From Maridesulfovibrio hydrothermalis AM13 = DSM 14728 (lineage in GTDB: Bacteria > Desulfobacterota > Desulfovibrionia > Desulfovibrionales > Desulfovibrionaceae): a stretch of 64,000 nt of DNA. The translations under genes and the position numbers were made by a program. Of the stretch, positions 47,694-63,407 are shown piece after piece; the first letter of the stretch is position 1; every line of letters begins with the position of its first letter. The notes below the pieces were generated by a model, which ran no database searches, was not told where the DNA came from, and worked only from the letters and a program-made list of their open reading frames with translations. The stretch covers positions 1,830,370 through 1,894,369 of the forward strand of contig NC_020055.1 in NCBI RefSeq assembly GCF_000331025.1. Reading direction: 5' to 3'.

Positions 47694-47954
47694 AATTTAT
47701 GTGTTTGATATTATTTTATAAAAGTCAGGTTGTTATCAAAATATATAGATGCTTGATAGTTCAAAGTACAGAACCATGCAAGAGGCATGATAATTATCAC
47801 AGCATATTAGGATTATTCTGCGGCATGCGGATAAATTAGTCAGCCCTATAGACGTAACTTTTGTTTACGGGCATAGTATCCACTATTATAAAGCTAATTT
47901 CTGTAACCGTAAGAAGTCTGACAGACTTCTTTTATCCTCTGCAAGGAGTTGAAT
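47694..47954. other. Intergenic region with two palindromes
   Basis: 261 bases between divergent genes. TGATAATTATCA (47788-47799) is a perfect 12-bp palindrome resembling half-spaced Fur heptamers but with the wrong centre. AAGAAGTCTG/CAGACTTCTT (47911-47931) flanks one base just upstream of the CofD-like gene. No gene seen. Confidence 0.4.
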
Positions 47955-49097
47955 GTGGGCAAGAAACATCCGGGAATTGTTTTTTTCAGCGGTGGAACGG
48001 CTTTAAACGGCCTTGCTGCCTACATCGCTGATCTCAATCCTGAATGTTCATATATTATTACCACTTTTGATTCCGGGGGAAGCTCGGCATATTTGCGTGA
48101 TGCTTTTGATATGCCTGCTGTGGGAGATGTCCGCAACAGACTTCTTGCTCTGGCTGATACCAGAAGCCCTGAACGGGCCAATATTGTAAAACTCCTTTCC
48201 ACACGGCTGCCCAGTATCGGAGTCCGGAATTCTCTTCAAGACCAGCTCGACCATTTGGCAAACGGTTCTCATCCTTTGATGGAAGGGTTGTCCGATGTTG
48301 TATGTAAAATTTTAGCCGACAGGTTTTCACTTTTTGTTGATATGTCAGAAGGCCGTTTTAATCCAACGTATGCCAGTCTTGGAAATATTATTCTTGCCGC
48401 CGGATTTATGGCTCATCAACGGGTTCTTGCCCCTCCGATTGCACAGCTTTCACGTCTTATAAATGCTCGCGGTGTTGTTCGTGCTGCAACTATTGATAAC
48501 GGGCATCTTGCTGTACGCCTGCAAAATGGTGAAATTATTGCCGGTCAGCATTTATTTACCGGAAAAGAAGTGGACCCCATTCCCTCTCCTGTTGACGGCA
48601 TGTGGATTTGTTCGGGGATAAATGATCCGTGGCCCCGTTCGGTGCATGCCTCGTCTCTTGCCATGATGCTGGTCAGCGAGGCGGATATGATTGTCTATCC
48701 CATGGGCAGTTTTTATTCGAGTCTTCTTGCGGCTCTTTCTCCTCAGGGACTTGGTCAGACTATTTCTCTCAACCCCTGTCCTAAAATTTTTGTTCCCAAT
48801 ATGGGCTATGATCCCGAGCTGATAGGTCATGATGTTACTCTTCAGGTTAAAAGACTGCTCGAAATTCTGCGCATGGATAATGCTGCTTACATTAAACAGG
48901 AAGACGTGCTTAATGCTGTTCTGGTTGATTCGGAGAACGGCGACTATCCGGGCGGACTTGATATTGCCGCACTTGAAAAACTGCCTGTAAAAGTAATTGA
49001 CCGCAGACTTGTTTCAGATGAATCTGAAGGCCTTATTGATCCGGCACTGCTTGCTCCTGAATTATTGAAACTGGCGAGCAGCAACATATTTACTTAA
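47955..49097 (+). CDS. CofD-like protein, GAK-type paralogue outside the cluster
   Basis: 380 residues. GTG at 47955 with AAGGAG six bases upstream; TTG 47949 is too close to it. CofD-fold features: IVFFSGGTALNGL (ligand-binding glycine loop), TTFDSGGSSAYLRD, PAVGDVRNRLLALAD, YPMGSFYSSLLAAL and KIFVPNMGYDPE. The same motifs and spacing occur in the GAK-cluster gene at 55408-56595, so they are paralogues (visible identity across the FSGGTA, FDSGGSSA and AVGDxRxRLxALAD blocks). CofD itself transfers phospholactyl groups to make coenzyme F420; whether this protein does anything similar is unknown. Confidence 0.85.
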   Translation: MGKKHPGIVFFSGGTALNGLAAYIADLNPECSYIITTFDSGGSSAYLRDAFDMPAVGDVRNRLLALADTRSPERANIVKLLSTRLPSIGVRNSLQDQLDHLANGSHPLMEGLSDVVCKILADRFSLFVDMSEGRFNPTYASLGNIILAAGFMAHQRVLAPPIAQLSRLINARGVVRAATIDNGHLAVRLQNGEIIAGQHLFTGKEVDPIPSPVDGMWICSGINDPWPRSVHASSLAMMLVSEADMIVYPMGSFYSSLLAALSPQGLGQTISLNPCPKIFVPNMGYDPELIGHDVTLQVKRLLEILRMDNAAYIKQEDVLNAVLVDSENGDYPGGLDIAALEKLPVKVIDRRLVSDESEGLIDPALLAPELLKLASSNIFT

Positions 49098-49127: not shown

Positions 49128-49979
49128 ATGTACATAGGCGCCCATATGCCCATTACCGGCGGCGTGGATAAGGCTGTTGAGAGAATTATTTCCATAGGCG
49201 GAACCGCTTTGCAGATTTTCACCCGTAATCAGCGGCAGTGGAAGGCAAAACCCCTCGAAGAACAGGTTATTGAAAGATTTAAACAGCTCAGACAGGATTG
49301 GGGAGGCTATCCGGTAAGCGTTCATGATTCGTATTTGATCAATCTGGCCTCACCAAAACCTGATGGAATAGCAAAATCCGTAAAGGCTTTTGCACAGGAA
49401 CTGCGCAGGACTGAAGCACTGGGCATTGAGTATATAGTGACTCATCCCGGGTCTCATCTTGGCTCTGGAAAAGTTGAAGCTCTTGAAAGATATGCGGCTA
49501 ACCTCGATCAAGCCATAAGCGACTCGGAAACTCAGGAAGTGCGGATTCTGATTGAAAATACAGCCGGACAGGGGACTAATCTAGGCAGCAGGTTCGGAGA
49601 ACTTGCTACGATTTTAGAAAATTCAGGATACACTGACAGGATGGGCGTGTGTTTTGATACCTGTCATGCTTTTGCAGCCGGCTATGATCTGCGCACCGTT
49701 GAAAGTTGCGAAGAAGTTTTCGCCCGTTTTGATAAACTTGTCGGATTGGATTTTATCCGTTTTTTTCATCTAAACGATTGCAAGGAAGGTCTGGGGTCCA
49801 ATAAAGATCGGCATGAGCACATCGGCCAGGGACTCATCGGTCTTGAAGGATTTAAATATATTATAAACGATGATCGCTTTTCTGCTGTTCCCAAAGTGAT
49901 TGAAACACCTAAAGGCGATGATGATTTTGTTTTTGATAAACGAAACATAGAATTGCTTCGTTCCCTGCATGATGGATAG
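49128..49979 (+). CDS. nfo: Endonuclease IV (AP endonuclease)
   Basis: 283 residues. Landmarks of the family: MYIGAHMPITGGVDKAVERI, NQRQW, VSVHDSYLINLASP, VTHPGSH, IENTAGQGTNLG, VCFDTCHAFAAGYD and HLNDCKEGLGSNKDRHEHIGQG with the metal-binding His/Glu/Asp residues. It cuts DNA 5' of abasic sites. ATG 30 bases after the CofD-like gene; ribosome site GGGATGTAG is modest. Probably the same operon. Confidence 0.97.
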   Translation: MYIGAHMPITGGVDKAVERIISIGGTALQIFTRNQRQWKAKPLEEQVIERFKQLRQDWGGYPVSVHDSYLINLASPKPDGIAKSVKAFAQELRRTEALGIEYIVTHPGSHLGSGKVEALERYAANLDQAISDSETQEVRILIENTAGQGTNLGSRFGELATILENSGYTDRMGVCFDTCHAFAAGYDLRTVESCEEVFARFDKLVGLDFIRFFHLNDCKEGLGSNKDRHEHIGQGLIGLEGFKYIINDDRFSAVPKVIETPKGDDDFVFDKRNIELLRSLHDG

Positions 49980-54561: not shown

Positions 54562-55101
54562 TTAAAGAGCAAATCTTTTTGCACCTGCCACAACTGTTAA
54601 TCCTGCTGCGGCGAGCAGCCACGTTGAAGCGATGGGAACAGGGGCGGGAACCTGAGCAAGGAAGCCGAGCTTGCCATTTGCATGCAGCACCTTGTGTCCA
54701 TGATAGCCCATGTGTTTAAAGCGTACTTTCCTCGGTTCAAACTCAATGTAAAACGCATCTTCAATAGTCTGCTGCCCGGGAATCGCTGTGTAGTCAAAAA
54801 CGGTTTGAGGCGTAAGCTCTGTGTATTCAGCAAGGCTGGGCAGTCCAGTTCCGGCATAGAATTTAACAGGTGTTCCACGATCAATACGTGTTATTACATC
54901 TGCCAGTGTAAAAGTAGAAGTTGCACTAAGATCCTTAAATCCGATAGATCCGAGATAATTGTTGTTTCCGAGTCTCCATGTCTTACCCTTGTTTTCCATT
55001 ACAAATCTGAAGCTGGCGGCGTGCGATAACGTACTTGAAAAAATAAGCATTGCAGCCGTCAGAATGATAACAAATAAAGTATTAACTGCTGTTAACTTCA
55101 T
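54562..55101 (-). CDS. Exported protein with PEP-CTERM-like sorting tail
   Basis: 179 residues. Signal peptide to about residue 28 (SSTLSHAASF), a ~120-residue beta-rich domain (SATSTFTLADVITRID; PGQQTIEDAFYIEFEP) and a C terminus made of VPAPVPIASTWLLAAAGLTV, then VAGAKR and FAL. A VP-x-P motif, a hydrophobic helix and a basic end are the three parts of the PEP-CTERM/VPLPA-CTERM exosortase signals. The protein is probably anchored and processed by an exosortase encoded elsewhere. CAGGAGGA precedes the ATG. Confidence 0.7.
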   Translation of the reverse strand: MKLTAVNTLFVIILTAAMLIFSSTLSHAASFRFVMENKGKTWRLGNNNYLGSIGFKDLSATSTFTLADVITRIDRGTPVKFYAGTGLPSLAEYTELTPQTVFDYTAIPGQQTIEDAFYIEFEPRKVRFKHMGYHGHKVLHANGKLGFLAQVPAPVPIASTWLLAAAGLTVVAGAKRFAL

Positions 55102-55407: not shown

Positions 55408-56595
55408 TCAAGTCAGGGAAAGCAGTGCTTTTGAAAGCAGTGCGGGGTCCAGATGCGGCGTACTTTTTTCACTGATAAGTTCGCAGTCGATGACCTGAAT
55501 TCCAAGTTTGTTTATCTCAGCTTTATTTACGCCTCCGGGATAAAGGCCATTAACAGAATCCAGCAGTATAAAATTAAGAACATCCTTTGTGGAAATATTT
55601 TCAGGATCATCTTTGCGGAGGTAACAAAGAAGCTTGTGTATCTGGTCTGTGAGGGAATGACATTTCAATTCGGGATCATTCCCTGTATTGGGGGTGAATA
55701 TTTTAGGGCATTTATTAGTTTTGATCGCATTTCCAATGCCTTGAGGGAGCAGATTAGCAACCACGCTGGAGTAAAAACTGCCTACCGGATAGCAGATGAG
55801 TTCCGCGCTTCTGATAAGTTCTTTTAACTTCTCACGGATTTCAACTCGGCATAAAGTGGAATCTTCAAGGTTTTTTGCCAGCCATAATTCTTTGATGCCT
55901 GAAGCCAGAGGGCGCGCCTCTTTGCCGGTAAGCAGGTGTTGTCCCACCACAAAGCTTCCATCATCAAGCTCCGCCGCCAGATGCAGATCCTCGTTCACTG
56001 TTGCACGGACAATTCCTTTCACCTCGACCAGTTTGGAAAAAATATAAATAACAGGGTCAATATGCCGGCGGTTGGCAATATAACCAGCGGTAAGTATGAT
56101 ATTTCCGATGCTTGCGCCGCGAAGATCAAAGTCGTCCATGATTTCGGAGAACTGTATAAAGTGGTTGCGGATGATTTTACGCATGGGAGCAGGAATGTCG
56201 CGGACCAGTGGATGTTCACTGGCTTTCATCAGGTCAAATTCAGCTCTGAGCGTTGCATCATCTGCTGTTTCGGGCAGTCGATAAGAAAATAATTTGTATA
56301 TTTCCGGGTTTCCCAGAACTGATTGATCAGCGAGAGCCATGAGCCTGCTGCGGATATCTCCTACAGCCAGCATTTTGAATTTATTGCGGATAACAGCTGA
56401 GCTTCCCCCTGAATCAAAGGGAGTTATGATGTGGATAGTGTTATGTGTGTATTGGGTCAGTTCTGTGGAGGTCTGTTTCATGGCAGTTCCACCGCTGAAA
56501 AAAAGAATTCGTGGACCCAAGTCCGGAGTTCTTCTGTAACGCTCCAGCTTGATCCAGTCTGGAACTCCGACTTCCCTTTCGATTTTGATTCGCAT
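55408..56595 (-). CDS. GAK system CofD-like protein
   Basis: 395 residues from the ATG at 56595 (AGGAAA upstream). CofD fold: ILFFSGGTAMKQT, TPFDSGGSSAVIRNKF, AVGDIRSRLMALAD, YPVGSFYSSVVANLLPQG and KIFTPNTGNDPELK. Last gene of the GAK-like cluster, 96 bases after the HprK-related gene. Relatives transfer a phospho-acyl group (CofD) or bind nucleotide sugars (YvcK); activity here unknown. A paralogue lies at 47955-49097. Confidence 0.88.
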   Translation of the reverse strand: MRIKIEREVGVPDWIKLERYRRTPDLGPRILFFSGGTAMKQTSTELTQYTHNTIHIITPFDSGGSSAVIRNKFKMLAVGDIRSRLMALADQSVLGNPEIYKLFSYRLPETADDATLRAEFDLMKASEHPLVRDIPAPMRKIIRNHFIQFSEIMDDFDLRGASIGNIILTAGYIANRRHIDPVIYIFSKLVEVKGIVRATVNEDLHLAAELDDGSFVVGQHLLTGKEARPLASGIKELWLAKNLEDSTLCRVEIREKLKELIRSAELICYPVGSFYSSVVANLLPQGIGNAIKTNKCPKIFTPNTGNDPELKCHSLTDQIHKLLCYLRKDDPENISTKDVLNFILLDSVNGLYPGGVNKAEINKLGIQVIDCELISEKSTPHLDPALLSKALLSLT

Positions 56596-56691
56596 GACGC
56601 TTTCCTGATGGCAGATGATCTGCAACGGATCATATGCCGATTAAATAAAGCCGCCCCGCTTAAATTCAGTGGAACACGGCTTGATAAACTA

Positions 56692-57783
56692 CTACTGAAT
56701 AATGCCTTCCTGCATGAATTTCAGGCAGGCATCGGCAGCTTTATCGAAATCAACACCGCCGCTGATTTCAATAATAGTGGTTCTTGACAGAATATCAGCA
56801 TACGCGTCAACATCAGGATCATTTTCTTTTTCAGGACTTGAGGGCAGGTAGAAGAGTCCTGTACCTTTCATAAAAGCTGGCAGCAGGTCTTTGCGCTGAG
56901 CCGGATCTATTATCTGGATGCTGGTTGTCTTCTGGCCTCTCTGCCAGTTGAGGATGACCAGTCCATTCATGGGCGCGCGCAGGATAAATTTATTTTTACC
57001 GAAGCATTCGTCGATAAGGGCATCATATTTATGTTCCAGCTCCCAAAGTTCTTCTTCAGGCAGGGCCTTGAATTTCGCCTTGTCTTTCTCGGGTACTATG
57101 CAATCCAGATCTGGGTTGTTCAGTGCGGTGCCGGGGTTGATACGGGGGTGTTTGGCAACTCCGTTTAGCGTTATGGTCTTACCGTTTTCTTCAATCATGA
57201 CCCGGTCATTGCTGAGGAAGGTCGTTCCGCGGCTCATAAGATGCAGGGCGAGGGTTGATTTACCCATGCCAGAAAAACCTGCGATTGCGATTGCGCGACC
57301 GTTCCTGATAACTCCGGCTGCGTGGCCAAGGAGGCTGCCTGTGTTCAGTTTATATTCAATGAAGCGGTTGTTGATAAAATTGATGACCTGATTCAAGTTT
57401 TCAACACAGGGGCCTACGGCAATATTTTCATCATCACCGAAGGCAAAAATTAATCCGGTCAATCGTTTATAAACTACGCGTCCATCACTTAAATCGGCGA
57501 ACTCTTCTTTTATTTTAGTTTTGCCCGGCTCCGGTTGCTTAACTGTATAATTCAGCCCCAGATCCACCGCAGGGCATTCGTGGGCGGTGATCAGGATATC
57601 ATTTCTGTCTGCGTCTATCAGAAATTCTTTGAAATAATTATTGAGGTCGGCTAGAAGCTTTGCACTGTTAACCTTTGTTTCAATTACGCAGCCTCCGAAA
57701 TTGATAAACAATGATTTGTCAGCCGGAAACTGCTTACGGTATGTTCTTACAATATCGGCTCTGGTAATATGGTTGCGGTTCAT
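56692..57783 (-). CDS. HprK-related kinase B, GAK system
   Basis: 363 residues. The P-loop AGFSGMGKSTLALHLMSRG lies near residue 170; it is followed by FLSNDRVMIEENG, as in HPr kinase/phosphorylase (which has a Walker A and an Asp/Arg pair to phosphorylate a serine in HPr). The N-terminal ~150 residues differ from true HprK. Predicted role: ATP-dependent phosphorylation of a protein partner or small molecule. The start overlaps the ATP-grasp stop by one base (TAATG), so the two are coupled. Confidence 0.88.
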   Translation of the reverse strand: MNRNHITRADIVRTYRKQFPADKSLFINFGGCVIETKVNSAKLLADLNNYFKEFLIDADRNDILITAHECPAVDLGLNYTVKQPEPGKTKIKEEFADLSDGRVVYKRLTGLIFAFGDDENIAVGPCVENLNQVINFINNRFIEYKLNTGSLLGHAAGVIRNGRAIAIAGFSGMGKSTLALHLMSRGTTFLSNDRVMIEENGKTITLNGVAKHPRINPGTALNNPDLDCIVPEKDKAKFKALPEEELWELEHKYDALIDECFGKNKFILRAPMNGLVILNWQRGQKTTSIQIIDPAQRKDLLPAFMKGTGLFYLPSSPEKENDPDVDAYADILSRTTIIEISGGVDFDKAADACLKFMQEGIIQ

Positions 57784-58655
57784 TATTGTACCTTTTTGAT
57801 TACAAAATCCACGTAAAGGGAAGCAGCATCTATGCCGCGAGCGTTAAGCAGTCCCCGAAAACCTCCGAAGGCCGATACTTCAAATATGAAAGGGCCGTCA
57901 TCGGTAATGGCAACATCTACGCAAGTGAAGTCAAGGTTGAAAATGGCCTGCGCTTTCTGCGCCAGATCGATTATTTCCTGCGGAGGATCAACCGGAGCGT
58001 ACCTGCCGCCGTTCACGGTGGTTGTGTTCCATGAATCCGTGGTTTTGCAGCGGGCGTAGGTAGTCAGGTATTTCCCACCGAGAAAAACGATACCCAGATC
58101 ACTGTCTTTGAGATCGATAGTTTTCTGGATGTACATGGTTTTATATTCTTTGCTGTATTCTTCGATGGTTTTGCGTGCATCAGGGCCGGGTTTAAGCACA
58201 AACATGCCTCGAGCCTTAGTGCTGTAGAGAGGTTTAAATACCGCTTCTCCATATTCTTCGACCGCTGCAAGTGCGTGGTTTACATCTTCTGTAATGGTGG
58301 TTGGCGGCATGGGGATGTCGCCCAGTTGCAGGGATATGGTGCAGGTCAGTCTGTCCAGTACTCTGAGGATAGAGCAGGGCGAGGAGAATATTTTCACCCC
58401 GCGCCCTTCAAGAAGACGCAGAATTTCAAGACGGTCCAGCAGGTCCGGAGAATATTGCTTGCCGATTTTTTTAATTATGAGTGCGTCAAATGTTGATAGA
58501 TCGTGGCCTTCGATCATAGCTTTACCTGACGGGAGGTCCAGACGGAGGTTCTGCATTTCAAAGAGCAGTTTTTCCTGACATGTTTTATCTGCAACAGCCT
58601 TTGCAAGCTGCTCGGATGACCACGCGCCTTTGATGCCGATTACGCCTATTTTCAT
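57783..58655 (-). CDS. ATP-grasp enzyme, GAK system (RimK-like)
   Basis: 290 residues with RimK-type ATP-grasp pattern: ALIIKKIGKQYSP, SPCSILRVLDRLTC, AVFKPLYSTKARGMFVLKPG (ATP-lysine and glycine loop), YIQKTIDLKDSDLGIVFLGGKYLTTYAR, FNLDFTCVDVAI and FIFEVSAFGGFRGL with metal-binding Glu. It should join a carboxylate to an amine or thiol using ATP. CAGGAGAAGG lies upstream of the ATG. Confidence 0.88.
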   Translation of the reverse strand: MKIGVIGIKGAWSSEQLAKAVADKTCQEKLLFEMQNLRLDLPSGKAMIEGHDLSTFDALIIKKIGKQYSPDLLDRLEILRLLEGRGVKIFSSPCSILRVLDRLTCTISLQLGDIPMPPTTITEDVNHALAAVEEYGEAVFKPLYSTKARGMFVLKPGPDARKTIEEYSKEYKTMYIQKTIDLKDSDLGIVFLGGKYLTTYARCKTTDSWNTTTVNGGRYAPVDPPQEIIDLAQKAQAIFNLDFTCVDVAITDDGPFIFEVSAFGGFRGLLNARGIDAASLYVDFVIKKVQ

Positions 58656-58679
58656 AGCTGAAACCTTCTCCTGCTGTGG

Positions 58680-60338
58680 TTAATAATGAAGAATATCTTC
58701 AGGCAGAATGAAATTTTCCCATTTGCCGTTGTAGCGATTCACTTTTTCAAGAAGGAACATAGAGCGGTTGAACATTTCCTTTGCAAATGCGTAGTTAAAT
58801 TCAAAACGGGTGGAGGTGTAAAATGAACGGGCCAGTGCCAGAGCTAAACGGGCCTGCCATGTCGGATCATTATTCTCCTGCGCAAATTCTTCAGCAAAGT
58901 TGTAGAACCGGGTGATTACAGAATTGATTTTATTTCTGATGGGCCGGTCAAATACAGGCATGCGGAAACTGGAGACCATAAAAACTGATGCATCCTGAAT
59001 GTAGTCAAAGTTTCTTGAGCGGTAAAGATCGATGAATCTGATCCTTTCATCCGCGTTGGTATAAACTACATTGTTACAGTTGAAGTCACCGTGAATAAAG
59101 ACAGTGAATGGAGCAGGTATTAAGCTCTCTATAGCCATGCATTCATTAATAAGCTCTTCAGATGAAACAATTTCTGCTGTCCCCAGCTGCCTTGCATTGC
59201 GATGGAATTCAGGGTGTACTTGAAGCACACCGTTTCGGCGCGATTTCAGCTGTTCCATGAAAGTTGTCTGGAGCGGGCCGTCTTTTTTGGTTGTTCCCCA
59301 GATATGACGCAAAGTCTGTTCAAGCGTGAACAGCGCATTTTCGAGATCTGCATCATCAGAGGTAAGGATCATAGTATCCAGAGTGCAGCCGGGCAGGAAT
59401 TCAACCAGCATGGAGCCTTTGTTTTCATCAGTGTTTTCCTGAAAACCGAAAACTTCGGGAACCATACCCGGAAAATTGTTGTTCCAGATTTCGAGGTTGT
59501 TGCGTTCCAGTTTGATTTTATCAAGGTTGCCTTCTTTATAGATACTTCCCTGAGCAACCGGAGGACCGTCTTCTTTCTCTTTCCCTTTGGCCTGAACATG
59601 GCCGATTCGGCAGCCGGAACGCGATCCCCATATTCCCTGAAAGTCGATATCTGAAAACGAGCCGTCATAGCCGGAGACACTCAAGGTCTGCTGCAATGAT
59701 TCGAACTGTTCAATCTTGATGCGCTCCCCGAGGATGGAAAAAATGATCGCCTCCCCGATATTAAGCAGGGAGTCGCCAATTCTTTCAAGGTAGCGGAAAA
59801 TAAAGAGCACAGTCACAAGGTCGGGAATATTTTTGCCACTGCCCATCTCGGCCATGATCCTGTTGAAATTGTCCTTGTAAAGAGAATCAAGCTGATATTC
59901 AGATTTGCAGATTTCAAGTGCCAGAGGCATGTCATCCTCAATAAATCCGCCGATGATTTTTTCGGTGGTTTCCTCTATAATGTCGAAGGCTTCCGGGCAT
60001 TCAAACCGGTTAACAAAAGCCTTGTCCTCAAGGTAGGCCATTTGTTTTACGATGTTGACGCAATAGTCGCCGATGCGTTCAAGGTTAACAGAGGATACCT
60101 GTATGGCTCTGATCTTATTGAGAAGATTTTTATCTAGATCTTTATCAATATTAATGCGTGAGTAGCATTTGTTTTCGATTACGGTTTTCAGGTTATCAAT
60201 ATAGTCATCGCGTGAGGTTATCTTGCGGAAAAGCGAACGGGAGGGAGAGGCAACGAATTCCCGTGTTGCTTTAATCTGATTCAGAACCTCAATGATGAGA
60301 AACTTAAAATTTTCGTCTAAACCTTCGAATGTAAGCAT
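58680..60338 (-). CDS. PhoU domain fused to an aminoglycoside-phosphotransferase-like kinase
   Basis: 552 residues. The first ~210 are two PhoU-type three-helix repeats (SVNLERIGDYCVNIVKQM and FRYLERIGDSLLNIGEAI, each with the E-R-x-x-D metal site). The rest is an APH/choline-kinase-like fold: GSMLVEFLPGC (hinge), VFIHGDFNCNNVVYTN (catalytic Brenner-type HGDxxxxN) and IRFIDLYRSRNFDYIQDAS (metal-binding Asp). PhoU proteins link phosphate supply to other systems; the fusion suggests phosphate-dependent control of a small-molecule kinase. It starts two bases after the amphi-Trp gene. Confidence 0.88.
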   Translation of the reverse strand: MLTFEGLDENFKFLIIEVLNQIKATREFVASPSRSLFRKITSRDDYIDNLKTVIENKCYSRINIDKDLDKNLLNKIRAIQVSSVNLERIGDYCVNIVKQMAYLEDKAFVNRFECPEAFDIIEETTEKIIGGFIEDDMPLALEICKSEYQLDSLYKDNFNRIMAEMGSGKNIPDLVTVLFIFRYLERIGDSLLNIGEAIIFSILGERIKIEQFESLQQTLSVSGYDGSFSDIDFQGIWGSRSGCRIGHVQAKGKEKEDGPPVAQGSIYKEGNLDKIKLERNNLEIWNNNFPGMVPEVFGFQENTDENKGSMLVEFLPGCTLDTMILTSDDADLENALFTLEQTLRHIWGTTKKDGPLQTTFMEQLKSRRNGVLQVHPEFHRNARQLGTAEIVSSEELINECMAIESLIPAPFTVFIHGDFNCNNVVYTNADERIRFIDLYRSRNFDYIQDASVFMVSSFRMPVFDRPIRNKINSVITRFYNFAEEFAQENNDPTWQARLALALARSFYTSTRFEFNYAFAKEMFNRSMFLLEKVNRYNGKWENFILPEDILHY

Positions 60339-60340
60339 AA

Positions 60341-60613
60341 TTATGAATTGACTCTGATTGTTTTAGCTGTTTGGTTTTCATCGCGGCAGGATTCTTTCCA
60401 GGAAATTTTGATGGCGATTTTGTTGTTCTTATCTTTTCTTTTCGCTTTGACAGAAAAGTTAAGCAACCCCTTCGGGATCAGTTCAATTTCATCACCATTG
60501 GTGGAAAGACTTATTTTTCCGCTATCGAATCCATCCACAAGGGAATTTAAGAATCGGCGGATAGTTTCAGAATCCTGAAGGGATTCAAATACAAATTTTT
60601 TCTCAACAGACAT
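60341..60613 (-). CDS. Amphi-Trp domain protein, 90 aa
   Basis: Small protein with the amphi-Trp pattern: FLNSLVDGFDSGKISLSTNGDEIELIPKGL region, then alternating hydrophobic beta strands ending in AIKISWKE, whose Trp names the domain. The domain is recurrent beside GAK-system genes. No catalytic residues; probably a partner or carrier for the enzymes. ATG with GGGGAA upstream. Confidence 0.85.
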   Translation of the reverse strand: MSVEKKFVFESLQDSETIRRFLNSLVDGFDSGKISLSTNGDEIELIPKGLLNFSVKAKRKDKNNKIAIKISWKESCRDENQTAKTIRVNS

Positions 60614-60785
60614 GCTGGTTCCCCATGTTCCCGGCAGACTTATATATTATTTATCTGTGCGGGGTTGGATCGTTTCTGGTATATTTTCAGTTGTCTATCA
60701 CTGTTAGGCCGGATGGTACGTTGCAATAATATGAAGATTGCATGAAGACGAAGCAGCCTTTTGCTGTTTTATGGCCGTCCACTAG

Positions 60786-61928
60786 CTAACCGGCAAGTCT
60801 TTCGCGATACTGGGTGATGGCCGTTTGCCTGTCTATGCCTGCAACGATCAGTTTTTTTCTGATATTCAGGTCGTCCCATGCGGGCTGCAAACCTATTTCA
60901 CGCGCAGCTTTGGCAGGGTCTTGAGTGTCGAGCGGTTTAGTTTTTTCACTCATATGGCAGTCGTCTCCCATGAAAATGAGCAATTCGCGGCTTCCAGCCG
61001 GGCGGCTGTTATTTTGTTCATTAACAACCGAGATCAGAAATTCCGTGTAACGCTGTGACTGCGGATTCCATGCCTCAATACCGTCGACATCATACTTTGC
61101 AAGCAGGATAGGCCAGAATTCTTCAGGGTGCGGAATAACCACGCAACCGCCAAGGGAGCGGGCTTCTTCGATCACTTCAGTCGCTCTGTAGAAAAATTTA
61201 AGTGAAAAGTTAGCCTTAACCAGCAGCTTGATACCTTTAATGTAGGCTTGAACCCGATTGATAAGGTTGTCGCCGTATTTAGGGCGCAGTCCGTCAAAAT
61301 AGTTTTTGATCAGCTTGTTTTTGATGGATGATTTGGGGATGGATGACCAGTTTTCATCAAGCATGGTCTGCATTTTGGTTACGTATGCTTTAACCATTTT
61401 TACTAAATTCTCATCAGCACCTGTTTCACGGGCGGCAATATTAATACGCTCTTCATTGGGCTTGGTGATGGTATCCATGTATTCAAAAAGTTGTGATGAA
61501 CGGTATTTAAAAGTATGAGCGAGCATTGATTTGAGTACATCCGCATCTTTTACTTTTTCATTTTCAAAGTGCAGCAGTAATTGGACTTTCTGGTTGAACC
61601 CGCTGGCGTAGCAGTCAACCTCAACACCGGTATACGGACCGTAATTCATGAGTACATTATGCTGGGTCGGGATAAGCAGCTTGTCTGTTGCATTTGGAAA
61701 CATGGTTTCCACGCGTTGTGAAATCAGGTCAAGGGGGACGAATTCAGGATGCCAGTGTACGGCCAGCACTTTTTCCTGACGGGGATAAATTTTGGAGGGA
61801 GTTACAATCTGATCAACCTGCCAGTCGGCAAGTTCGGTGGAAATTACAGCTTGAAATAAGGCGCGTTCTTCATCAGTAATTTCGGGAGAAACGGTAACCG
61901 CTTCTGCGCATGATGTTGCTGTGTTCAT
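60786..61928 (-). CDS. PHP-like metal-dependent phosphoesterase, GAK cluster
   Basis: 380 residues. The order of metal-ligand motifs resembles the PHP family: VHWHPEF (HxH) near 56, TQHN, a Glu in GVEVDCY, LLLHFE, VIPHPEEFWP, GIEAWN and finally GDDCH (DxH-type) near 330. The central ~100 residues are helical. PHP proteins hydrolyse phosphate esters such as histidinol phosphate or DNA ends. Linked to kinases in this cluster, it may reverse phosphorylation. Nine bases after the XXXCH gene. Confidence 0.7.
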   Translation of the reverse strand: MNTATSCAEAVTVSPEITDEERALFQAVISTELADWQVDQIVTPSKIYPRQEKVLAVHWHPEFVPLDLISQRVETMFPNATDKLLIPTQHNVLMNYGPYTGVEVDCYASGFNQKVQLLLHFENEKVKDADVLKSMLAHTFKYRSSQLFEYMDTITKPNEERINIAARETGADENLVKMVKAYVTKMQTMLDENWSSIPKSSIKNKLIKNYFDGLRPKYGDNLINRVQAYIKGIKLLVKANFSLKFFYRATEVIEEARSLGGCVVIPHPEEFWPILLAKYDVDGIEAWNPQSQRYTEFLISVVNEQNNSRPAGSRELLIFMGDDCHMSEKTKPLDTQDPAKAAREIGLQPAWDDLNIRKKLIVAGIDRQTAITQYRERLAG

Positions 61929-61937
61929 TTTATATAC

Positions 61938-62510
61938 TCACTTATGCTGGGCGTGGCAGTGTGCTTTGATACTGTTTAATTCGTCACAGGCCTTATGTGC
62001 GGCTTTAAGATCTTCTGTATTGACAGCATCCTGAAAAGCGTCGCAGGCGGCAATGTATTCATCATAATAGTCATCACCGTAGCCTTCGTGTTCAACCATG
62101 AGATGGGAGTAGGCGATGAATTCTTTAACTGCTTCAGTCGGGGGCAGCGATCCGGCATGAATTGTTGAAAAAATAGTTTTGAAGGAAGATTTCATACGTT
62201 TTTTAAGTGATTTATATTTAAGCTTGCCCAATTCATCCGCATGGCTGGCGTTATCAATAACGGCTTCTATGCCATCAGGGCCTGTCGGAGAATATTGTAC
62301 AGGGGTGGATAAAGGTTTGGCGGTAACTTTAACAGCAGTGTGTCCGAATTCATTACGGATATTGATTTTCAGTTTTTTAAAACCTTCAATAACTACAAGG
62401 TAAGCATCGTCTTCAGATGCGCCGTGTTCAAGGGCATCGGCTATTTTACGCAAAAAATCAGGGAGTTCACTTTGGCTGATATGTTTTTTTATTTTACTTT
62501 TTTTTGCCAT
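61938..62510 (-). CDS. GAK system XXXCH protein
   Basis: 190 residues; ATG at 62510 with AGGAGA upstream. The N-terminal ELPDFLRKIADALEHG and following strands look like a relaxed amphi-Trp unit. The C terminus ends SIKAHCHAQHK, the xxxCH tail that gives the domain its name. First gene of the seven-gene cluster, so the promoter should lie in 62511-62810. Confidence 0.85.
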   Translation of the reverse strand: MAKKSKIKKHISQSELPDFLRKIADALEHGASEDDAYLVVIEGFKKLKINIRNEFGHTAVKVTAKPLSTPVQYSPTGPDGIEAVIDNASHADELGKLKYKSLKKRMKSSFKTIFSTIHAGSLPPTEAVKEFIAYSHLMVEHEGYGDDYYDEYIAACDAFQDAVNTEDLKAAHKACDELNSIKAHCHAQHK

Positions 62511-62870
62511 CAATCTTCTCCTGAGAGTTGAGCCGTGACAGGTGGACTTATTTTTTTGATAAATTATCCATGCTGGTTATATATGAAGAGAATATCATAA
62601 CAATTGCAGAGGAGTTACAGACTTGAAACTATCTGATATGTTTTGGTGGTAGTTAACCGCATATTTTTTTCATATGTTTAAGTACGCCTTGGAAGAATAA
62701 ACCCAAGCGGGCCGGTTTACCAGTATTTATTATCTACACTGATGTTTGCATGCTATCGTCTGGTGATGATTCATGCTTGCTCTGGGACAGATTGAAGTTT
62801 TGTCCAGAAAAAAAGCCGTAATCGATTGATTACGGCCAAAATATGTATTTCTAAACCTGTTATGGTGGAA
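62511..62870 (-). other. Intergenic region upstream of the GAK cluster
   Basis: 357 bases with the GAK promoter region and, at 62815-62836, the terminator of the HD gene. No open frame with a ribosome site seen. Confidence 0.5.
62805..62836 (-). terminator. HD-domain gene terminator
   Basis: GCCGTAATC and GATTACGGC flank four bases; on the minus strand a run of seven T follows at once. 34 bases after the HD gene stop. Confidence 0.9.
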
Positions 62871-63407
62871 TCAGTTTTCAGCAATGGCAAGCTCTTCCAG
62901 ATTTTTTCCGGTCTCCTGTTCAATGGCGGTTTTGATTCTTAGTGCCGTTTTTTTTCGTTGCTTTAGGTCTGAAACAGCCAGAGGGTCATCTGAATATGCC
63001 GCTATTTTATGATCGTACATGTAAATTACAGTAACCAGCTGGTCGCCTTTGACCAGTTTATCGGCAATAAAAACGATCTCTTTTTCAGTGACAAACGATC
63101 CTTCAGGGAAATCAATATCATTGTGTGCTTCAACAATTTCAGCGACCAGACCATATCCAAGTCCGCGCAGGATAGTTCCGCCCGTTGCAGCGTGATCTGC
63201 TTGCCCTTTCGCAATATCATGGAGCAGTGCACCGGCAGTGATAAGCGCGATATTCGGTCCCCGGTCACGCAGCCATTTTAGATCGCGTCCGATACGCAGT
63301 GCAACATCGCAGACCATGCGGGAATGGTTGATGACCGTTTCCGGCAGGTTTTGTGAGGCGAGTATAGTTTCACATTGCTCCGGGGTGGGGATATCAGGGT
63401 GTGTCAT
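62871..63407 (-). CDS. HD-domain phosphohydrolase
   Basis: 178 residues with the metal-site order INHSRMVCDVALRIG (first His), ALLHDIAKGQ (HD), EIVEAHNDID (His) and IFIADKLVKGDQ-type Asp. A small-molecule phosphohydrolase is expected. It is separated from the GAK cluster by a terminator, so membership of that system is unsupported. Confidence 0.88.
   Translation of the reverse strand: MTHPDIPTPEQCETILASQNLPETVINHSRMVCDVALRIGRDLKWLRDRGPNIALITAGALLHDIAKGQADHAATGGTILRGLGYGLVAEIVEAHNDIDFPEGSFVTEKEIVFIADKLVKGDQLVTVIYMYDHKIAAYSDDPLAVSDLKQRKKTALRIKTAIEQETGKNLEELAIAEN

Follow-up and report, generated by a model that had tools for sequence, protein, structure and literature searches.

The GAK locus and its closest described relatives

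Among the described systems closest to the locus treated here are parts of the phosphate response of Desulfovibrio. According to the available part of PMC3333781, the regulator PhoB of D. vulgaris (DVU1083) binds (c/t)GT(n)AC repeats, given there as 6-bp repeats spaced by 4 bp and accompanied by a citation of the E. coli box. The accessible portion of PMC5193443 reports that D. alaskensis G20 under phosphate limitation replaces more than 90% of its phospholipids, using the glycosyltransferase agt (Dde_3613) and OlsF (Dde_3661), and that at low phosphate its membranes are remodelled and polyphosphate granules are lacking. A stretch of 64,000 nucleotides from Maridesulfovibrio hydrothermalis AM13 (NC_020055.1, positions 1,830,370 to 1,894,369; hereafter the window) carries a GAK system, a conserved unknown previously represented by family names only (NCBIfam TIGR04354-TIGR04358), which may belong to a low-phosphate response of the G20 type. 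A sequence-only reading of the window had described seven genes in a single minus-strand run (55408..62510), had equated them with the GAK set, to which it ascribed no established role, and had supposed control by phosphate. The run is as described, five of the seven proteins pass the GAK family cut-offs, all in one locus, and no paper on the GAK system or its role was found among the open-licence literature. The supposed phosphate control now has independent evidence: adjacency to pst/phoU genes, an enrichment of PhoB boxes and linkage to low-phosphate lipid genes, because of which GAK is placed within the phosphate-starvation response of many carriers. The cycle that the sequence-only reading had also proposed, of phosphorylation (HprK, APH), ligation (ATP-grasp), modification with a phospho-group (CofD) and reset (PHP), gained no such support. 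Judged from sequence, GAK may be a module controlled by PhoB; amphi-Trp proteins would be acted on by a PhoU-gated kinase, a kinase of the HprK type and an ATP-grasp ligase. To this combined reading we assign a probability of about 0.5.

The window matches the five GAK families in the order seen in other carriers; NCBIfam supplies names only, and none of its GAK-named models matched the fused PhoU-APH protein or the PHP protein, although here both belong regularly to the cluster (in 50 and 46, respectively, of the 51 filtered loci defined below). With the Desulfovibrio Pho regulon many carriers share PhoB-box repeats and some share pst/phoU adjacency, whereas the available part of PMC3333781 does not mention GAK as a target and the box of the window is degenerate. 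Some GAK loci adjoin genes for a PHP-glycosyltransferase or an OlsF-like acyltransferase, some of them with similar boxes, and these are probably homologues of the G20 genes as presented in the accessible portion of PMC5193443; the products of agt and olsF are lipid enzymes, whereas GAK encodes no lipid synthase. HPr kinase/phosphorylase has its P-loop and His region in common with the HprK-related kinase B (HprK-B), which nevertheless stays under the cut-off of that family (TIGR00679, 28.6 vs 240 bits), and YvcK is similar to the CofD-like protein, yet this too falls under the family cut-off (TIGR01826, 106.6 vs 196 bits). The XXXCH protein, with a predicted four-helix bundle and a C-terminal Cys-His, may resemble cytochrome c'/b562, but is without the first Cys of CXXCH.

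Linkage of GAK to phosphate-starvation genes

Gene content, conservation, a PHP fold for the PHP protein, linkage with Pho genes and PhoB-box enrichment are results of computation. The set of loci numbers 81, consisting of the window and 80 loci from an alignment search with HprK-B (the best 80 of at least 300 relatives). They are labelled Desulfovibrionales and other Desulfobacterota, Zixibacteria, Nitrospinota, a Phycisphaerae, an Eisenbacteria and a GN15 genome. Genes were found by a profile search on all open reading frames (ORFs) combined with codon scoring; greedy longest-ORF calling missed genes in GC-rich loci. In four of the loci GAK lies directly 3' of pst/phoU genes: it follows pstS-pstC-pstA-pstB-phoU after 65 bases in L067, pstB-phoU in L075, and pstS-pstC-pstA in L074 and L076, where phoR/phoB-like genes diverge. 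Seven loci (these four, L045, L052 and L069) have Pst genes or a PhoU gene that stands alone. This count assigns PstB matches of 27-36% identity to other ABC proteins, and excludes L044 and L099, whose PhoU matches are to PhoU-APH itself.

Of the 81 loci, 15 have a PHP-glycosyltransferase gene and seven a gene for an OlsF-like acyltransferase; Pfam domains were checked, and the PHP part of the glycosyltransferase, not listed by Pfam, was assigned by eye via its motif. The glycosyltransferase is probably the low-phosphate glycolipid synthase, and the neighbouring glycosyltransferase and OlsF-like genes likely encode the same enzymes as agt and olsF of G20. The glycosyltransferase is carried by 65 of 72 further GAK genomes, mostly in single copy, and in 12 of these 65 it lies at most 20 kb from the GAK PHP gene (binomial p about 4e-11, a value that presumes independent genomes, which these are not).

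PhoB boxes upstream of GAK operons

An upstream region was usable for 59 GAK operons from the 81 loci, and 414 other genes of the same loci served as controls. The pattern TGTYAY-N5-TGTYAY was used first and YGTNAC, the D. vulgaris motif, later, and the scan covered three half-site forms, spacers of 0-11 and two mismatch levels. Exact YGTNAC-N5-YGTNAC is found in 14/59 GAK promoters vs 21/414 controls (p 1.5e-5); when one mismatch is allowed, the figures are 24/59 vs 41/414 (p 2e-8). The test is conservative because pst, phoB and glycosyltransferase genes are among the controls. The spacer scan peaks at 5, with no other spacer reaching p<0.01 for the YGTNAC half-site in the 59-promoter set, and the corresponding 11-base period is like that of the E. 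coli box, unlike the 4-bp spacer stated in PMC3333781. Throughout the 81 loci (1.35 Mb), exact boxes amount to 54 strand hits at 32 places in 20 loci. Directly 5' of XXXCH or PHP lie 17 of these places, exceeding the 14 exact promoters because predicted starts differ, and the remainder include sites 5' of pstS/phoB-like, PHP-glycosyltransferase or OlsF-like genes. In a held-out set of 71 promoters (90 further sequences, 30 of them loci from the class-wide PHP survey, less four without an XXXCH/PHP match and 15 near-duplicates), the exact box occurs in 10 (p 0.008) and the box with at most one mismatch in 32 (p 1.6e-11), against the same 414 controls. As far as promoter sequences can tell, PhoB quite probably controls GAK in those carriers that have a good box.

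The promoter of the window itself is less clear. Its genome does use the motif, as a perfect TGTTACGTTTCTGTTAC stands 129 bases 5' of a pstB-like gene, and upstream of XXXCH a site with three repeats at an 11-base period deviates from the consensus at 4 of 15 positions and is followed by TATGATAT. In the genus, a three-repeat row of this kind (at most 4/15 mismatches, a cut chosen after the data were seen) occurs in 10 of 16 promoters, the window's included, 76-104 bases 5' of the reference point, and two of the rows include an exact pair. The PHP-glycosyltransferase is present in 10/10 genomes with the row and in 0/6 without it (G400, G401, G402, G405, which is 84% complete, G407 and G409); a 17th genome, G399, has the glycosyltransferase, its promoter being outside the 16 compared. 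The operon-type CofD gene is also missing from four of the six row-less genomes (G400, G401, G402 and G409).

Several results weigh against the proposed phosphate role of GAK. Near the GAK operon of the window there is no PhoB box with at most one mismatch, and the degenerate site taken alone is not significant, 53/414 control promoters being equally good. A box at this mismatch level is likewise missing from 35/59 GAK promoters and from 39/71 held-out ones; the held-out set shows smaller excesses also at spacers 3, 4 and 8 (7/71, 11/71 and 7/71 at the same level, with 6/414, 12/414 and 12/414 in controls), and all the p-values are optimistic because the sequences are related. Outside the genus, the link between box and glycosyltransferase is not significant (23/52 vs 1/6, p 0.20), and the glycosyltransferase is missing from seven of the 72 further carriers. 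Table 1 of PMC5193443 lists no GAK-annotated gene for G20, where the presence of GAK is not established. Some of these observations fit a tentative alternative in which the Pho link is limited to certain lineages: GAK would be an older, general regulatory module that was put under PhoB, with a core task unrelated to phosphate, for example redox or nucleotide-sugar signalling via the cytochrome c'-like XXXCH protein. The lack of a good box in most GAK promoters agrees with this, as does the absence of the repeat row from 6/16 genus genomes despite their PHP gene; PhoU-APH is nevertheless an almost constant member of the loci, and pst adjacency and exact boxes span loci labelled Desulfovibrio, Desulfobacteraceae, Desulfarculus or relatives.

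Occurrence, gene order and fusions

The recurrent order of genes is XXXCH, PHP, amphi-Trp, PhoU-APH, ATP-grasp, HprK-B and CofD, often with a second amphi-Trp gene next. HprK-B is flanked by 7 kb or more upstream and 3 kb or more downstream in 51 loci, a filter that the window extract falls outside; of these, all seven genes are present in 31, and the six other than XXXCH in 45 when counted anywhere in the locus. In a phylum sample of 148 genomes, HprK-B is above its cut-off in 12, the PHP protein occurs in 11, and 10 genomes have both; HprK-B stands alone in two drafts (G042 and G078, 67% and 62% complete) and PHP alone in G118. Class-wide, the GAK PHP gene is present in 145/348 genomes and 35/59 genera, and, judging by record titles, GAK extends to several other phyla. 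Four genomes (G356, G361, G362 and G369) have the GAK PHP gene twice, on separate contigs, with the glycosyltransferase near one of the copies.

Two fusions, as read from the assembled frames of metagenome-assembled genomes, tie the HprK, CofD and amphi-Trp parts together: HprK-B is joined to CofD in one 779-aa frame (L096, 3874-6213) and to amphi-Trp in one 477-aa frame (L111, 1013-2446). By Pfam, a survey of the flanks (105/120 upstream and 103/132 downstream genes) found no constant family among the first 25 listed; two-component, GGDEF and chemotaxis genes are frequent, and such genes are common in genomes of this kind. An anti-phage or toxin-antitoxin type of defence cassette, to which a compact multi-enzyme make-up and patchy class-wide occurrence might point, is very improbable, as PADLOC models match 0/7 proteins at E<=0.01 and, among the first 25 Pfam families listed for the flanking genes surveyed, the most frequent are not defence families. 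Glycogen genes were considered as GAK partners and rejected: L048 is the one locus matched by the GlgA and GlgC seeds, L075 the one matched by the GlgP seed, and phosphorylase by Pfam accounts for 2/103 downstream genes.

Enzymes and candidate chemistry

Conservation was counted over proteins with at least 70% model coverage, omitting the fused L096 (CofD, HprK) and L111 (HprK) as well as L038 and L098 (CofD). In PhoU-APH both the PhoU and the APH domains are above the Pfam gathering scores, the whole remaining below the full-length PhoU family TIGR02135 (99.2 vs 130.25 bits), and E87/D91, E185/D189 and H416/D418/N423/D437 are conserved in at least 97% of 68 sequences. The placing of PhoU beside a kinase domain suggests a kinase gated by phosphate status. 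HprK-B (TIGR04355, 568.6 bits, cut-off 200) retains the P-loop within 169-177, H154 and N192-D193-R194 in at least 97% of 79. The ATP-grasp protein (TIGR04356, 466.1 bits, cut-off 300) is above PF08443 (36 vs 21) and below the RimK-type ligase family TIGR00768 (95 vs 143.4 bits); the top named ATP-grasp equivalog after GAK is MptN, the tetrahydromethanopterin glutamate ligase (143.5 bits vs cut-off 350). Its K141, D247, E259 and S261 occur in at least 97% of 77, position 261 being usually Asn. The PHP-like protein has no Pfam or NCBIfam profile match at E<=1; its predicted structure is a PHP fold, and the nearest PHP structures include one holding AMP and phosphate.

For the CofD-like protein (TIGR04357, 548.9 bits, cut-off 340; PF01933, the CofD superfamily, 115.3 vs 30 bits) the sequence-only reading had proposed transfer of a phospho-group. 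A D71-SGGSS motif is present in at least 97% of 62 sequences, which we take to be typical of YvcK-type sugar-nucleotide binders and not of 2-phospholactate transferase, and the proposed transfer step is therefore doubtful; the YvcK score is below cut-off.

APH kinases and PHP enzymes mostly act on small molecules, and a small-molecule pathway is a serious, if still tentative, rival to modification of proteins. GAK would in that case make or recycle a small phosphorylated metabolite, cofactor-like or a sugar-phosphate, which the kinases phosphorylate, to which the ATP-grasp enzyme adds an amino acid and which PHP hydrolyses; the amphi-Trp proteins would be carriers or scaffolds rather than substrates, and Pho control would reflect the phosphorus content of the metabolite. 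The usual APH and PHP substrates, the standing of the tetrahydromethanopterin glutamate ligase as top equivalog, the AMP- and phosphate-bound PHP structure and the want of an invariant Ser/Thr acceptor in the amphi-Trp protein all favour such a pathway. The presence of up to three amphi-Trp proteins per cluster and the kinase-amphi-Trp fusion suggest protein clients instead, and the scanned flanking genes contain no constant biosynthetic or transport family.

The amphi-Trp and XXXCH proteins

The amphi-Trp proteins are small and non-enzymatic. That of the operon (TIGR04354, 66.7 bits, cut-off 31) is the sole match in the genome; among 64 proteins in this position W72 occurs in 100% and S11 in 93%, and a phospho-acceptor sought in this alignment revealed no invariant Ser, Thr or His. 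The second amphi-Trp protein has Lys/Ala/Pro-rich tails reminiscent of histone H1 in L038-L042 and L084, and acidic tails in other lineages; as a functional clue these tails were set aside, being too variable to interpret. In a locus labelled Desulfamplus magnetovallimortis, a polyphosphate kinase 2 gene (L048:1261-2756) adjoins a stand-alone amphi-Trp gene on the opposite strand.

The XXXCH protein (TIGR04358, 109 bits, cut-off 40) resembles amphi-Trp proteins in its N-terminus (profile comparison probability 94-95%, E about 1e-7), and its structure model (pLDDT 86) is a predicted four-helix bundle resembling cytochrome c' as well as other bundles. C186 and H187 are found in at least 97% of 35 sequences. 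The window protein contains no CXXCH heme attachment motif, XXXCH only, and no signal peptide on inspection by eye alone. Among the PDB sequences matched by its profile are designed porphyrin bundles, and histidine phosphotransfer proteins appear at E 0.16-0.37.

Proposed role of GAK in the phosphate response

The scheme that we infer, from PhoB binding through every chemical step and the client proteins to the outcome, would make GAK a cytoplasmic module that in many carriers is part of the Pho response. At low phosphate, PhoB would bind and turn the operon on. PhoU-APH, acting as a kinase gated by phosphate status, would together with the HprK-type kinase and the glutamate-ligase-like ATP-grasp enzyme modify amphi-Trp proteins, and the clients would be the amphi-Trp protein, XXXCH and, where present, the second amphi-Trp protein with its disordered tail. 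Such clients are suggested by the small proteins encoded next to an HprK-type kinase and a ligase like RimK/MptN, with one such protein fused to the kinase in L111; taken by itself, this protein-modification scheme is possible but tentative. The PHP protein may strip phosphate or nucleotide, reversing phosphorylation or trimming a nucleotide, and the YvcK-like CofD protein may bind and report a sugar nucleotide. The most likely outcome would be an adjustment of envelope or storage metabolism during the swap of phospholipids for phosphorus-free lipids. In its complete form, that GAK is an undescribed system of phosphate-status signalling and protein modification in which the PhoU-gated APH kinase, the HprK-type kinase and the RimK-like ligase mark amphi-Trp proteins, one with a cytoplasmic cytochrome c'-like bundle, PHP erases the marks and the whole helps anaerobes to switch to phosphorus-free membranes, the proposal is rather unlikely to hold in every part. 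With the tie to phosphate, functional tests have a growth condition and a regulator to start from, as well as neighbouring genes (pst, and those for glycolipids and ornithine lipids).

Operon borders and neighbouring genes

Table 1. Features of the GAK locus and related elements in the window (positions counted from the first base of the window).
Feature	Position	Strand	Remarks
XXXCH protein	61938..62510	-	N-terminal amphi-Trp domain (about 1-70), C-terminal four-helix bundle with terminal Cys-His
PHP-fold metallo-phosphoesterase-like protein	60786..61928	-	predicted fold PHP
amphi-Trp protein, 90 aa	60341..60613	-	TIGR04354
PhoU-APH, two PhoU domains and an APH-type kinase domain, fused	58680..60338	-	Pfam
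GAK ATP-grasp ligase, closest to MptN/RimK glutamate ligases	57783..58655	-	TIGR04356
HprK-related kinase B	56692..57783	-	TIGR04355
GAK CofD-like (YvcK-like) protein	55408..56625	-	TIGR04357; in-frame ATG at 56595
Degenerate three-repeat PhoB-box-like site	62589..62630	-	AGTTTC-n5-TGTAAC-n5-TGCAAT, then TATGATAT
Terminator-like hairpin 3' of upstream HD-domain gene	62814..62837	-	10-pair stem followed by a T run; pattern match only
Second GAK CofD-like gene, not in operon	47949..49097	+	402.6 bits, cut-off 340

The terminator-like hairpin is probably the upstream border of the GAK operon, judging from its pattern in a scanned region where 15 such hairpins were found vs 8.8 expected. Beyond it, the match of the HD-domain protein (62871-63407, minus strand) to the DVU_1551 NTP-transferase family is confined to positions 196-359 (155.9 bits vs cut-off 315), and a relative with 55% identity is encoded directly 5' of GAK in L038. 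Just past the other end of the operon, the protein at 54562-55101 (minus strand) has a C-terminal stretch that is weakly PEP-CTERM-like (16.2 bits, cut-off 100).

Locus tags DVU0670-0675 of D. vulgaris, proposed for GAK from a nifU/nifS/cysK neighbourhood in related loci, were dropped because they were a guess; three mentions of DVU0670 and one of DVU0671 in the available parts of the literature are not tied to GAK. The second CofD-like gene lies 6.3 kb from the operon, and a xylose-isomerase-like TIM-barrel gene (49128-49979) follows it. Of the 17 genus genomes, 13 carry two GAK-type CofD genes; the other four (G400, G401, G402 and G409) have one, which is of this second type, judged by score.

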